The notes beneath the pieces were generated by a model. That model worked only from the letters and a program-made list of their open reading frames with translations. It had not been told where the DNA came from and made no database searches. 64,000 bases of DNA from positions 310,001-374,000 of the forward strand of contig JALHQT010000005.1 of NCBI GenBank assembly GCA_022841825.1, given 5' to 3'. A program made the translations under genes and the position numbers. Numbering within the stretch: the stretch's first letter is position 1; each line of letters opens with the position of its first letter. Shown here piece after piece: positions 19,592 through 24,128 of this stretch. Source of the DNA: Anaerolineae bacterium (GTDB taxonomy: Bacteria > Chloroflexota > Anaerolineae > Aggregatilineales > Phototrophicaceae).

Positions 19592-20842
19592 ATGCCTGAA
19601 CCCATTCGCCTGCTGCATTTCGCCGATATCCACGTCGGCATGGAAAACTTCGGCAAGTTCGACCCGGAGACCGGCTTCAGCAGCCGCGTCCGCGATTTCC
19701 TGCGCCGCATGGACGAGATGATCGCCTACGCTGCCGAACACGAGGTCGATCTCACGATCTTTGCGGGCGATGCCTTCAAGACACGCCAGCCCAACCCAAC
19801 CTACCAGCGCGAATTCGCCCACCGTGTGCGTGAACTCTCGCGGCTTGCCCCGCTGGTGATGCTGGTCGGCAACCACGATATGCCGCCGACGCAGCTTAAG
19901 GCGTCGTCTATCGAAATATACGATACGCTCGCCGTGCCCAACGTGATCGTCGCCGACGACTATCGCCTGCATATCGTGGAGACTCGGCGCGGTCCCGTCG
20001 CCGTCGGCGCAGCGCCGTACCCGATCCGCTCGCGCATCCTGACCGACGAGCGCACCGCCGGGCTGACGATTGCCGACATCGACGTGCTGCTGCAAAAGGA
20101 ACTGACCCGCATCCTCGATACGCTGGCGGAAGAAGCGGGCGAACACGACATGCCGCGCGTGCTGACCGGGCACTTCACCGTCAGCGGCGCGGTCACGGGC
20201 AGCGAGCGCGGCATCATGCTGGGGCGTGATGTGCAGGTGCTGCCGTCGTCGGTCGCCGACCCGCGCTGGAGTTATGTCGCCCTGGGGCACATCCACAAGC
20301 ACCAGAACCTGACCGCCAAACGCAGCGCGGGCTTGCCCCCGGTCGTCTACAGCGGCAGCATGGAGCGTATCGACTTTGGCGAGGAAAGCGATCCGAAGGG
20401 CTTTTGCTGGGTGGAACTGGCGGACGGCACGGCTCAGTACGAATTCATCCAGCTCCCCGCCCGACCATTCGTCACGCTGGAGATCGACTTACGCACGTCG
20501 GAGTCCCCGACCGCCGAGGTTGTGGATACGATCAACGCGCATCAACTGCATGAGGCGGTCGTGCGCCTGATCCTCCAGTTGACGCCGGAGGTCGAAGCAA
20601 AGCTGAATGAAGGCATCGTCCGAGACGCGCTGCGCCGGGCGGGCGTCAGCTTTATCGCGGCGATTCGCAAAGAGGTGGATGAGCCTGCGCGGGCGCGGCT
20701 CGGCGACAGCCCGGAAGGATTGACCGACCTGGAACTGCTCGACCGTTATTTCGCCAGCAGGGGCACGGACGAGACGCGGCGCGTGCTGCTGCGCGAACAC
20801 GCCGAGCGCGTGATCACTCAGGCGGGAGATTCGATAGAGTAG
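19592..20842 (+). CDS. sbcD: DNA double-strand-break repair nuclease SbcD/Mre11 family
   Basis: A 416-residue metallophosphoesterase nuclease. The five phosphoesterase motifs are present: FADIHVG near residue 12, FAGDAFKT, GNHDMP, GHFTV and GHIHKHQ. SbcD works with the SMC-like ATPase SbcC to open hairpins and blocked ends. No SbcC gene follows; the next 570 bp are non-coding on this strand, so the partner is either elsewhere or this is a stand-alone paralogue. A hairpin nuclease in a genome so rich in perfect palindromes is of interest. Confidence 0.88.
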   Translation: MPEPIRLLHFADIHVGMENFGKFDPETGFSSRVRDFLRRMDEMIAYAAEHEVDLTIFAGDAFKTRQPNPTYQREFAHRVRELSRLAPLVMLVGNHDMPPTQLKASSIEIYDTLAVPNVIVADDYRLHIVETRRGPVAVGAAPYPIRSRILTDERTAGLTIADIDVLLQKELTRILDTLAEEAGEHDMPRVLTGHFTVSGAVTGSERGIMLGRDVQVLPSSVADPRWSYVALGHIHKHQNLTAKRSAGLPPVVYSGSMERIDFGEESDPKGFCWVELADGTAQYEFIQLPARPFVTLEIDLRTSESPTAEVVDTINAHQLHEAVVRLILQLTPEVEAKLNEGIVRDALRRAGVSFIAAIRKEVDEPARARLGDSPEGLTDLELLDRYFASRGTDETRRVLLREHAERVITQAGDSIE

Positions 20843-20859
20843 ATCATCGCTTGATAACG

Positions 20860-20945
20860 GTGCGAGGTGCGTGGTGCGCAGTGCGAAAAAGCGTCCAACG
20901 CGCAGTGTTCTCGTTTGTTCGCACCACGCACTTCGCACCTCGCAC
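20860..20945. repeat. Inverted repeat of stuttering GTGCG words (third copy)
   Basis: GTGCGAGGTGCGTGGTGCGC from 20860 pairs imperfectly with the arm at 20915-20945. Same family as 3631-3724 and 6279-6330. It starts 18 bp after the sbcD stop. Confidence 0.75.
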
Positions 20946-20987
20946 TGATAAACACAGCACTCGTCACTCGTTACTCATCACTGATAT

Positions 20988-21028
20988 AAAAAGCGACGCC
21001 CCCGGACGAAGCCGAGGGCGTGCTTTTG
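20988..21028. terminator. Bidirectional intrinsic terminator
   Basis: Stem ACGCCCCCGG (20996-21005) / CCGAGGGCGT (21012-21021), with a 6-base loop. An A-tract on the left (20988-20992) and TTTT on the right make it usable from both strands. It ends the sbcD message and the minus-strand small transcript. Confidence 0.85.
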
Positions 21029-21088
21029 CTGTCTAGGAGTTGCGCCGCCTAAGTGCGACGCGCTCACTACAGAGAGACTCGTGAGGCG

Positions 21089-21127
21089 CTAGGAAGGGCG
21101 CACCCCCATATGACTGCGACAATTCAC
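21089..21127 (-). CDS. Candidate 12-residue peptide with near-ideal ribosome site
   Basis: GTG start at 21127 encodes MNCRSHMGVRPS and then TAG. AAAGGAGGTGATC at 21128-21140 is fully complementary to the standard 16S rRNA 3' end, far stronger than the sites of neighbouring genes. A GTG two codons earlier overlaps that site and is less likely. The peptide is too short for homology. Its Cys-Arg-Ser-His content could suit a leader peptide, but no downstream gene is present. Confidence 0.5.
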   Translation of the reverse strand: MNCRSHMGVRPS

Positions 21128-21165
21128 GATCACCTCCTTTATGGTCTAAGCCGACAACGAAAAAA

Positions 21166-21194
21166 AGCATAGCACAAGGTTCAATGCGGGTCAA
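21166..21194 (-). promoter_or_regulatory. Consensus sigma-70-type promoter for the small transcript
   Basis: Read on the minus strand: TTGACC (21194-21189), 17-bp spacer, TATGCT (21171-21166), then a T-rich start region. One of the best promoter matches in the window. Confidence 0.7.
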
Positions 21195-21251
21195 GAGGTG
21201 TAAAGGATATTCGTAACTACCTGTTTGGGTAGCTGGATTCTGCCTGATTCC

Positions 21252-21334
21252 AGAACCTCACCCCCGTCCCCTCTCCGTAAACGGAGAGGGGTAAACACGT
21301 TGCGCATGAGGCATCTTTGGCGGGGTGAGGTTCT
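21252..21334. repeat. 83-bp MITE-like element with 13-bp terminal inverted repeats
   Basis: AGAACCTCACCCC (21252-21264) and GGGGTGAGGTTCT (21322-21334) are exact reverse complements. An internal hairpin at 21268-21291 has 11-bp arms around a CGTAAACG core. The element at 24357-24542 shares the CCTCACCCC end. No ORF inside. Confidence 0.75.
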
Positions 21335-21416
21335 CGGATAGGTATAACTGAGTACAACATCGCGCTACAATTCCCCGTCGTGATCCGATAATGATCCACA
21401 CACGGGAGAATGCCCG

Positions 21417-24128
21417 ATGGCGCAGACGATCTTCATCAGCCACAGCAGCCGCGACGACGCCGACATCGACCGCATCGCCGAGGCGCTGCAAGCGGGGGGC
21501 TATGACTCGTGGGTCGATCATCGCCAGGGCATCACCCCCGGCGCGCCCTCTTGGGATGCCGCCATCCGCGCCGCCCTGGTCGATTGCGCGGCGGCGCTCT
21601 TCGTCATGAGCGGCGAAGGGCTGGCGAGCGAAATCTGCGGCAGCGAGTGCCTGCTCGCCCGCGAACTGGAGAAGCCGCTCTACGTGCTGCGCCTGCGCGA
21701 GGTGGAGCCGAAGGATGTCTGGCTCTACATCAAGCAGATCCAGTACGCCGATCTCGTCCACGATTTCGAGGCAGGGATGGCGCTGCTCCTGAGCACGCTG
21801 CGCGGCGAAAAGCGCGAAGGCGCGCCGGAAGTCGTGCGGGCGAAGTTCACCGGGCGCGCCGCGCTGCGCCTGACGCTGCCCTACATCGACACCAACCCGC
21901 TGCGTGGGCGCGCGGACGACCTGGAACGCCTGCGCGCAAGCCTGGGCGCGCATGTCGTCCAGGTGACGGGCACAGGCGGCACGGGAAAATCACGCCTGGC
22001 GGCGGAGGTGGCGCTCGAACACCCGACCGGCGCGCTCTGGCACCGCTGCACTGCGAACACGACGGCGAGCGACCTGCTGATCGGGCTGGCGGAGCATGTC
22101 GGCATGAAAGCGGATACGCCGCGCGCGGCGCTGCTGGCGGCGTTCAGCCGACGCCCCGCGCTGGTCGTCGTCGATAACGCGGAGGACGTAGCGCAGGGCG
22201 CGCGGCGCGACGACTACCGCGAACTCCTCTATGCGCTGATCGAGGCGGGCGCGCCCGTAATCCTGACGGCGCGCGCGCCCTGGAACGAGCTGAAGCCGCG
22301 CCGCGAGATCGTGCCGACGGCGCTGGACGAGGCGACCGCCGCGCAGATCGCGCTCGATTTCGCCGCCGCCGAGCAAATCGCCCTGAGCGCGGACGAGGCG
22401 ACCGAGCTGGCAACGGCGGCGCGCCTGTATCCCCGCCTGATCGAATGGGCAGTGACGCAGATCCCGGTGCAGACGGGCGGGCGGGCGCGCGTGCTGCGCA
22501 TGCTGCGCGACCTGAAGAGCCACGATGTGCAGGCGGCGCTGGACGAGATGATCACGCGCACGCTCGACCAGATGGAAGCGCAGGCACACGACGGAGCGGC
22601 GGCGCGCGCGCTGCTGGCACGGCTGTGCATCATGCCGGGCAGCTTCGACCGCCACGCCGCGCTCTATCTGCGCCAGCACGAGAGGGTCGATGAGGACGAC
22701 CTGGACGACGCGCTGACGACGCTGCGGGGCTGGCGCTTTTTGCGCGACGTGGGCGAGGAACGCTGGCGGGTCGAGGAGGTGGTGCGGCTGGCGGTGCACC
22801 ACGACGAGGACGCCTTCCTCCTTTTCGTCGATCACTACACAGAAGCCGCCGCGCAGTTCCTCAGCGTTCCGCCAGAGGAGTGGGCGGCGACCGTCGAACG
22901 CGACAGCGACAACATCACCGCCGTCGGCGATCTGCTGGTCGAACGGCTCGCCACCGCGCCGACCGCCGACCTGCACAAGCGCGCCGTCGCATTCGCAAGC
23001 AATATCAGAAACTACCTCGCTATGCGGCGCGAAGTCAGACGCGCTGCCTGGCTGGAGATGGGATTGGCGGCAGCGCAGGCGCTGGGTGAGGAGTATCGAG
23101 CGAAGAAGGCGAACTTCTTCAGCTCGATAGGTTTGCAAGCCCATGTTTATGGCGACATGGAGTCTGCCCTTGCTTCCTATGGGCAAGCGCTAATGATCCG
23201 TCGCGCTTTCAATGATAAACGCGGAGAAGCGACCATACTTAACAATCTTGGTGGTGTCTGGGCTGACCTGGGCGACCAGCACAAAGCGCTGGGCTTCTAC
23301 AACCAATCGTTGACCCTTTATCGCGCGAACAATGACAAGGGTGGAGAAGCGACATCGTTCAATAACATCGGTCTGGTATGGTCCCACTTGGGTGACAAGC
23401 AAAAGGCGCTCGATTACTTCAATCAGGCGATACCGCTCCTGCGCGATGTCGGCGACAAAGGCGGGGAGGCTGCGACGCTCAACAACATCGGCACAATCTG
23501 GTCTGCTCTGGGCGACAAACAGCAGGCGCTCGATTACTTCAAGCAGGCGCTGCTGGTGGTACAGGTAGTTGGTAACAAGGTTGGTGAAGCGAAGACGCTC
23601 AATAATATCGGCGATGTGTGGATTGAACTTGGCGAGCCTCAGAATGCGCTCGACTACTATGAGCAGGCGCTGCCGCTGCGTCGTGCGGTCGGCGACAAGG
23701 ACGGCGAAGCGAGGACGCTCAACAATATCGGCGGGGTCTGGTATGGCCTGGGCGAAAAGGATAAGGCGCTCGACTACTACCATCAGGCGCTGCCGCTGCG
23801 TCGTGCGGTCGGCAATAAGAGCGGAGAAGCGACGACGCTCAACAATATCGGCATGGTCTGGGATGACCTGGGCGACAAGCAGAAGGCGCGCGATTACTAC
23901 GAGCAGGCGCTACCGCTGCTTCGCGCACTGAGCGACAAGGGCGGCGAAGCCGTCACCTGCTTCAATCTCGGATTGCTTCATGAATCGCTCGGCGATCTCG
24001 AACAGGCGGTCAGTTATTTCGAACGCTGCATTACGTTGGGCGAGCAGGTGCAGAGTCCGCATCTCGAACGCTTCCGCGCGGAGATGGCGCGGTTGCGGGC
24101 GAAGCGGGATGGGGGGAGCGCGCCTTAG
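21417..24128 (+). CDS. TIR domain - STAND-type NTPase - TPR protein
   Basis: A 903-residue multidomain protein. Residues 2-130 form a TIR domain (IFISHSSRDD start, Cys74-x-x-Glu77 with Glu77 as candidate NAD-cleaving residue). A nucleotide-binding domain follows with Walker A GTGGTGKS (185-192) and Walker B LVVVDNAED (249-257), then a winged-helix/helical region, and eight 40-residue TPRs from about residue 580 (pattern GDKQKALDYFNQAL...NNIG). This layout matches NLR-like bacterial sensors where the TPRs detect a trigger, the NTPase oligomerises and TIR depletes NAD; several are anti-phage. It is a single gene flanked by repeats. Whether it is defence or signalling is not settled by sequence. 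Confidence 0.88.
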   Translation: MAQTIFISHSSRDDADIDRIAEALQAGGYDSWVDHRQGITPGAPSWDAAIRAALVDCAAALFVMSGEGLASEICGSECLLARELEKPLYVLRLREVEPKDVWLYIKQIQYADLVHDFEAGMALLLSTLRGEKREGAPEVVRAKFTGRAALRLTLPYIDTNPLRGRADDLERLRASLGAHVVQVTGTGGTGKSRLAAEVALEHPTGALWHRCTANTTASDLLIGLAEHVGMKADTPRAALLAAFSRRPALVVVDNAEDVAQGARRDDYRELLYALIEAGAPVILTARAPWNELKPRREIVPTALDEATAAQIALDFAAAEQIALSADEATELATAARLYPRLIEWAVTQIPVQTGGRARVLRMLRDLKSHDVQAALDEMITRTLDQMEAQAHDGAAARALLARLCIMPGSFDRHAALYLRQHERVDEDDLDDALTTLRGWRFLRDVGEERWRVEEVVRLAVHHDEDAFLLFVDHYTEAAAQFLSVPPEEWAATVERDSDNITAVGDLLVERLATAPTADLHKRAVAFASNIRNYLAMRREVRRAAWLEMGLAAAQALGEEYRAKKANFFSSIGLQAHVYGDMESALASYGQALMIRRAFNDKRGEATILNNLGGVWADLGDQHKALGFYNQSLTLYRANNDKGGEATSFNNIGLVWSHLGDKQKALDYFNQAIPLLRDVGDKGGEAATLNNIGTIWSALGDKQQALDYFKQALLVVQVVGNKVGEAKTLNNIGDVWIELGEPQNALDYYEQALPLRRAVGDKDGEARTLNNIGGVWYGLGEKDKALDYYHQALPLRRAVGNKSGEATTLNNIGMVWDDLGDKQKARDYYEQALPLLRALSDKGGEAVTCFNLGLLHESLGDLEQAVSYFERCITLGEQVQSPHLERFRAEMARLRAKRDGGSAP

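Follow-up and report, generated by a model that had tools for sequence, protein, structure and literature searches.

In leader-peptide attenuators, translation of a mini-ORF decides between alternative hairpins, which are followed by a terminator. Dual-function small RNAs (sRNAs) such as SgrS/SgrT and RNAIII/hld encode a peptide that is a conserved effector, and they also base-pair with other RNAs. The mRNAs of hok-type type I toxins sequester the Shine-Dalgarno (SD) sequence internally and possess an alternative 3′ arm; type I toxins are longer, hydrophobic membrane peptides, usually with an antisense partner. Rhodobacter CcsR-type RNAs bear an anti-SD loop motif, and such loops also occur in other sRNAs. 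The gene for CcaF1, a DUF1127 small protein, lies beside these Rhodobacter RNAs (PMC10253847). The Chloroflexi-1 RNA motif (RF01698) has been reported only from Chloroflexus aggregans (PMC2864571); it was the sole Chloroflexi-named motif met in our literature search, which returned no description of the unit reported here.

This unit is located on the minus strand of the window, a 64,000-nucleotide stretch from the genome of an Anaerolineae bacterium. Like the dual-function sRNAs, it is predicted to be a free-standing small transcript with a promoter, a short ORF, structure, and a terminator; unlike them, its amino acids are barely constrained and its ORF is part of a covarying helix. The layout of mini-ORF, hairpin, and terminator is similar to that of leader-peptide attenuators, but the unit serves no downstream gene and stands alone throughout its family. 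An SD predicted to pair internally and an alternative 3′ arm recall hok, but the predicted peptides, mostly 9–15 residues long and largely polar, are not those of a type I toxin, and no antisense partner was noted. As in the CcsR-type RNAs, an anti-SD in a small RNA is linked to a small ORF; the unit differs in possessing neither a DUF1127 ORF nor tandem copies, and its anti-SD faces its own SD.

Rfam 15, with a match defined as a covariance-model score above the gathering score, matched nothing in the window, and even with the E-value limit relaxed to 10 the locus itself yielded no relevant hit. Neither form of the unit (see below) was matched at 13 loci, in agreement with the first-pass annotation, which had recognized no known RNA family. 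Chloroflexi-1 shares the Chloroflexi name, but has no Rfam match to the window or to the second form. The tmRNA and 6S RNA are housekeeping RNAs that, like the unit, are single-copy, and tmRNA likewise carries a short ORF; identity with either was rejected, as the unit locus is without a covariance-model match and both genes lie elsewhere in the genome, apart from the unit (tmRNA, RF00023, at C4:172898-173282; 6S RNA, RF00013, at C1:309308-309482).

Organization of the unit

The putative promoter comprises a −35 hexamer TTGACC (21189..21194, minus strand, as are all elements below) and a TG-extended −10 hexamer TATGCT (21166..21171), read from the sequence with a 17-nt spacer; homologues repeatedly show similar promoters at a constant spacing to the ribosome site. 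From the end of the −10 hexamer to the SD there are 27 nt in the window copy versus mostly 22–25 nt in relatives. Just 3′ of the expected transcription start, as placed by the promoter position, would lie the 5′ end region TCGTTGTCGG (21151..21160), which alignments match to the conserved AUCGUCGG in relatives. The perfect SD stretch AAAGGAGGTGATC (21128..21140) is complementary over 13 nt to the 16S 3′ end. A 16S gene from the same order ends in GGATCACCTCCTTT, so the complementarity that had been claimed at first pass is real. No second copy of this 13-mer exists in the 5.9 Mb genome outside the minus-strand unit. A reverse-strand 16S fragment was considered and rejected: although AAAGGAGGTGATC complements the 16S end, there is no rRNA match at the locus, and the flanks are unlike 16S (compared with L188).

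The GTG start codon (21127-21125) directly follows AAAGGAGGTGATC and opens a mini-ORF (21089..21127) of 12 codons, GTG included, which ends in TAG and would encode the peptide MNCRSHMGVRPS; frame and stop are kept in relatives. Within the ORF lies TGGGGGTGCGCC (21097..21108), the 5′ arm of a helix termed P1, whose 3′ arm is GGCGCAACTCCTA (21034..21046); both arms were placed using covariation and the predicted fold. The fold further places an inner hairpin, GCGCCTCAC / GTGAGCGC (21060..21089), the 5′ side and loop of which contain TCACGA (21084-21079), complementary to TCGTGA (21129-21124) at the start codon. Following P1, AGACAGC (21028..21034) is by alignment the counterpart of the conserved GAGACCGC, and an intrinsic terminator (20987..21021), consisting of a 10-pair stem (21021-20996) and TTTTT, ends the unit; relatives have terminators as well. 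The window unit is a predicted structured RNA of about 175 nt, and is more stable than 200 of 200 shuffles (z −3.9). All of the elements listed at first pass (promoter, AAAGGAGGTGATC, GTG, 12-codon ORF, hairpins, and terminator) are present on the minus strand, and its verdict that the combination is too complete for chance is borne out, since homologues keep every element.

Homologues in the Chloroflexota

A DNA search of relatives yielded two full-length matches at 76% identity and further matches limited to the core around the ribosome site. The matches keep the promoter, a AUCGUCGG-like 5′ end, AAGGAGGTGAT, a short ORF, the long helix, a motif resembling GAGACCGC, and a terminator. A covariance model built from 11 sequences (R1) detected one copy in 70 of the 98 genomes of the window's family, and a second, built from 55 sequences (R2), raised this to 88, again as a single copy; R2 also found members in other families of the window's order. 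Across 400 genomes of the phylum its matches were weak, some of them clearly the same kind of unit. Plasmids gave chance-level matches only, and a viral pattern scan gave none. The genomes searched were those of Chloroflexota, mostly fragmented assemblies; all evidence is comparative, and the counts come from related sequences and overstate the number of independent events.

The covariance-model search among Chloroflexota genomes that the first-pass annotation had proposed thereby retrieved the unit from most of the family; the promoter, ribosome site, and stems, whose lack of conservation it had named as grounds for abandoning the claim, are all three conserved. The observation holds and is broader than first claimed: the unit is a near-universal gene in major groups of a large phylum. 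Apparently, this is a so far undescribed small RNA gene, single-copy, in most genomes of several Chloroflexota groups. It has probably been overlooked because ORFs of 9–15 codons are never annotated and because too few Chloroflexota genomes have entered RNA searches.

Genomic neighborhood

Both genes adjacent to the unit are on the opposite strand. The downstream gene (19592-20842) is convergent, and its product is a calcineurin-like phosphoesterase resembling SbcD/Mre11; as had been noted at first pass, nothing is encoded downstream on the minus strand. The upstream gene (21417-24128) encodes a 903-residue TIR domain–AAA–tetratricopeptide-repeat protein of signalling or defence type, which is not conserved beside the RNA in relatives.

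We examined neighboring genes at 61 loci using a simple ORF caller, with names judged from the sequences. An attenuator would place its terminator before a codirectional gene under its control; the downstream gene is convergent in the window and in 38 of the 60 scorable loci, and codirectional in 22. Neighbors vary by group: one genus has an exonuclease-like gene that is divergent, a few members have ClpB, and another family has a convergent bL25 gene. Promoters scoring at least 9/12 were detected in 46 of 112 distinct upstream regions (3.65 expected), and terminators in 60 of 112 members (2.7 expected). These comparisons establish the unit as a gene with its own promoter, its own terminator, and unrelated neighbors, which by design should be transcribed independently. 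It follows that it is neither an orphan, as the first-pass annotation had called it, nor a leader bereft of its gene, which had been among the possibilities raised: one copy is present in nearly every genome of the family, members are equally free-standing family-wide, and the neighborhoods across the family contradict a lost-gene leader.

An imperfect 39-nt inverted repeat, GGTGCGAGGTGCGTGGTGCG / CGCACCACGCACTTCGCACC (20855-20950, 79% complementary), separates the RNA terminator from the phosphoesterase gene; it has the appearance of a palindrome of the REP/MITE type or of a 3′ structure belonging to the phosphoesterase gene itself. Another inverted repeat, ATTCCAGAACCTCACCCC / GGGGTGAGGTTCTCGGAT around CCCCTCTCCGTAAACGGAGAGGGG (21247-21339), is positioned just upstream of the promoter and resembles a dispersed palindromic element.

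Helix P1 and the mini-ORF

Helix P1 pairs the second half of the ORF with the downstream arm. In the 90 distinct rows aligned by R2, which include two antisense strays, 80% of P1 cells are paired and two-sided changes occur at 15 of the 16 pairs. Doubly changed cells number 195 versus 61.5 in shuffles, an excess that is still large given that the alignment was fitted to a structure and is biased in its favor. Sliding the partner strand by 1–3 columns lowers the pairing from 80% to 50–55%. On this comparative evidence, the predicted helix P1 is conserved with strong covariation. An additional pairing of the 5′ end with the SD (AUCGUY with GGUGAU) was rejected, for which a single compensated case was found (L175, AUCGCC/GGCGAU) and the other members are without covariation.

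In all 113 distinct members a start codon lies ~10–18 nt downstream of the first SD nucleotide and is followed by a stop 9–22 codons later, nearly all at 9–16; as the ORF search window spanned 8–24 codons, the presence of an ORF is partly circular. Two further signs are independent of that search, one from spacing and one from stop codons. Although the distance from SD to start ranges over 11–18 nt, the spacing from start codon to helix is 11, 14, 17, 20, or 23, which maintains one frame in 84 of 89 members; of the five exceptions, the majority seem to stem from how the start or the helix was called. Among nearest neighbors, 29 stop codons are changed, 19 of them to another stop, whereas single changes at random should yield a stop in 1/9 to 2/9 of cases; the remaining ten include several shifts in ORF length. 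The comparison thus shows a reading frame and stop conserved through indels and stop swaps. In one member (L153) the usual stop is lost (TAG to CAG) and the ORF is extended to 21 codons; its close relatives L151 and L152 keep the stop.

Constraint on the amino acids is a different matter. The pN/pS ratio is 0.78 over 46 nearest pairs, with power limited on ORFs of 9–15 codons, which is not the signature of the selected peptide that defines a dual-function sRNA, and all three codon positions have changed to a similar extent. The peptides repeatedly show a loose pattern, Ser/Asn/His-rich and then Gly-Val/Ile. With frame and stop kept and amino acids little constrained, selection on translation (frame and termination) seems to exceed selection on the peptide. 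The earlier suggestion of a small-protein gene is accordingly upheld in its canonical parts (promoter, SD, start, in-frame stop, and terminator), but is weakened by how little the amino acids are constrained.

Pairing of the ribosome site

In the form of the unit found in the window's order, hereafter the first form, a 16S anti-SD hexamer, mostly CACCTC, is present within 35 nt after the stop codon in 54 of 80 distinct sequences versus 7.9 expected; in most relatives the stretch, for example TCACCTC, occupies the place of the inner hairpin. The next two segments contain 6 hexamers versus 4.2 expected and 0 versus 5.1 expected. Sequence comparison thus demonstrates an anti-SD stretch in most members, 3′ of the stop in the window's order and within the ORF in the second form. 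Some members without the hexamer are complementary to their own ribosome site through a different sequence, for example ATCATCTCC in L170-L172 or CACGATC, which faces GATCGTG in L029, L030, and L037. The loop of the window copy likewise has no anti-SD hexamer, TCACGA facing TCGTGA instead, and its SD pairing alone is no better than chance when duplex energy is compared with shuffles. Over all first-form members the SD-to-loop duplex energy has a small average advantage (mean z −0.76), with 15% of members at p<0.05; for this form the hexamer count is clearer than the duplex energies. The SD itself barely varies, so covariation can hardly test its pairing.

A second form of the unit

A pattern search together with a third covariance model, R3, surfaced a second form. 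It consists of AAAGGAGGTGATGCCC-ATG and an ORF of mostly 13–16 codons (for example, MSNKRKGITVEVVR and MSSKRMGVTAGEAR), followed by an arm resembling GGTGATGCCC and by a terminator. R3 matches 79 of the 400 phylum genomes, and several near-complete genomes of another order carry this form. In another order (that of G319) it matches 56 of 60 genomes, representing 23 of 23 genera and nearly always once; in the window's own class it matches 17 of 298 genomes, and the R3 search gave no match to the window copy. The two forms likely share one ancestor, given their shared layout and the cross-matches of R2.

The second-form ORF codons, typically GGCATCACC, complement the SD (mean z −3.3, 28 members), and they also complement the downstream arm with an energy similar to or greater than that of the SD pairing. 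Two close relatives, L131 and L134, take opposite members of this pair of alternatives as their minimum-energy folds. In a formal test of 13 sequences covariation is weak; compensated changes are seen in single members, GGGCATTACC/GGTAATGTCC (L236) and GGGTATCGCC/GGTGATACCC (L246).

Proposed mechanism and alternative explanations

We favor, with somewhat better than even confidence, a stand-alone translated mini-mRNA in which internal pairing gates the ribosome site and which ribosomes remodel. The near-perfect SD stretch would recruit 30S subunits, and the 9–15 codon ORF would be translated. By pairing the ribosome site with its internal anti-SD stretch, the RNA could gate its own translation; as the latter half of the ORF is paired to the downstream arm in P1, a ribosome reading the ORF would have to open that helix, and ribosome loading would thereby switch the RNA between folds. 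The two pairings may thus constitute a switch, of which the effector would be the refolded RNA and not the peptide. With no neighboring gene to serve and little constraint on the peptide, the RNA's own state is the likeliest output, and the sequences that face the ribosome suggest translation capacity as input or target. Most likely, the RNA would report or act on translation capacity, for example by exposing the anti-SD or by holding 30S subunits. We put forward more tentatively, and with appreciable doubt, the wider proposal of a phylum-wide free-standing RNA gene in which translating a throwaway mini-ORF sets the fold and so gauges or regulates ribosome availability. Were translation the conserved function, the unit would represent a free-standing relative of leader-peptide regulation and, possibly, a built-in gauge of ribosome supply.

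Much of the same architecture might instead belong to a trans-acting sRNA that pairs its anti-SD loop with the SDs of other mRNAs, the ORF controlling release of the pairing region, or, in a variant, pairs the 5′ AUCGUCGG and 3′ ACCGC motifs with its targets in place of the loop. The anti-SD loop is conserved, as are the 5′ and 3′ motifs outside P1; the window copy, however, has TCACGA and no anti-SD hexamer, and in the second form the anti-SD sits within the ORF, paired, and we regard the two versions jointly as unlikely, if deserving of some weight. The retention of start, frame, and stop would also be accounted for by a functional micropeptide of 9–15 residues whose RNA structure merely tunes expression, a reading with which the loose, phylum-wide recurrence of M-[SN]-S-x-S-H-x-G-[VI] or MSS-x-G-I-T-x-E-V is consistent. 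Much of this pattern is a consequence of RNA pairing, because the ORF codons complement the SD or the downstream arm; with peptides as diverse across the family as MNGHKGATL and MNDSMVEVRL, a nearest-neighbor pN/pS of 0.78, and changes even across codon positions, we judge the micropeptide improbable.

A sink or decoy, a possibility also raised at first pass, that merely uses the 13-nt pairing to retain 30S subunits or ribosomes would explain why the window 13-mer is perfect and unique in the genome and why promoter and terminator are strong, but neither conservation of frame and stop codon nor a covarying helix would be required of a passive sink, and many members carry SD variants (GGTGGT, GGTGAA); this explanation is decidedly improbable. 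Least credible is a leader or attenuator of a neighboring gene lost in this genome only: the ORF, helix, and terminator are laid out as in leader-peptide attenuators and a minority of members (22/60) have a codirectional downstream gene, but family-wide the downstream genes are unrelated and mostly convergent, which leaves it barely tenable.

In a few genomes the RNA gene is present as two distinct copies, whose peptides differ where these were read; the genomes are G553 (L243, L244), G461 (L194, L245), and G567, and, for the first form, G008.
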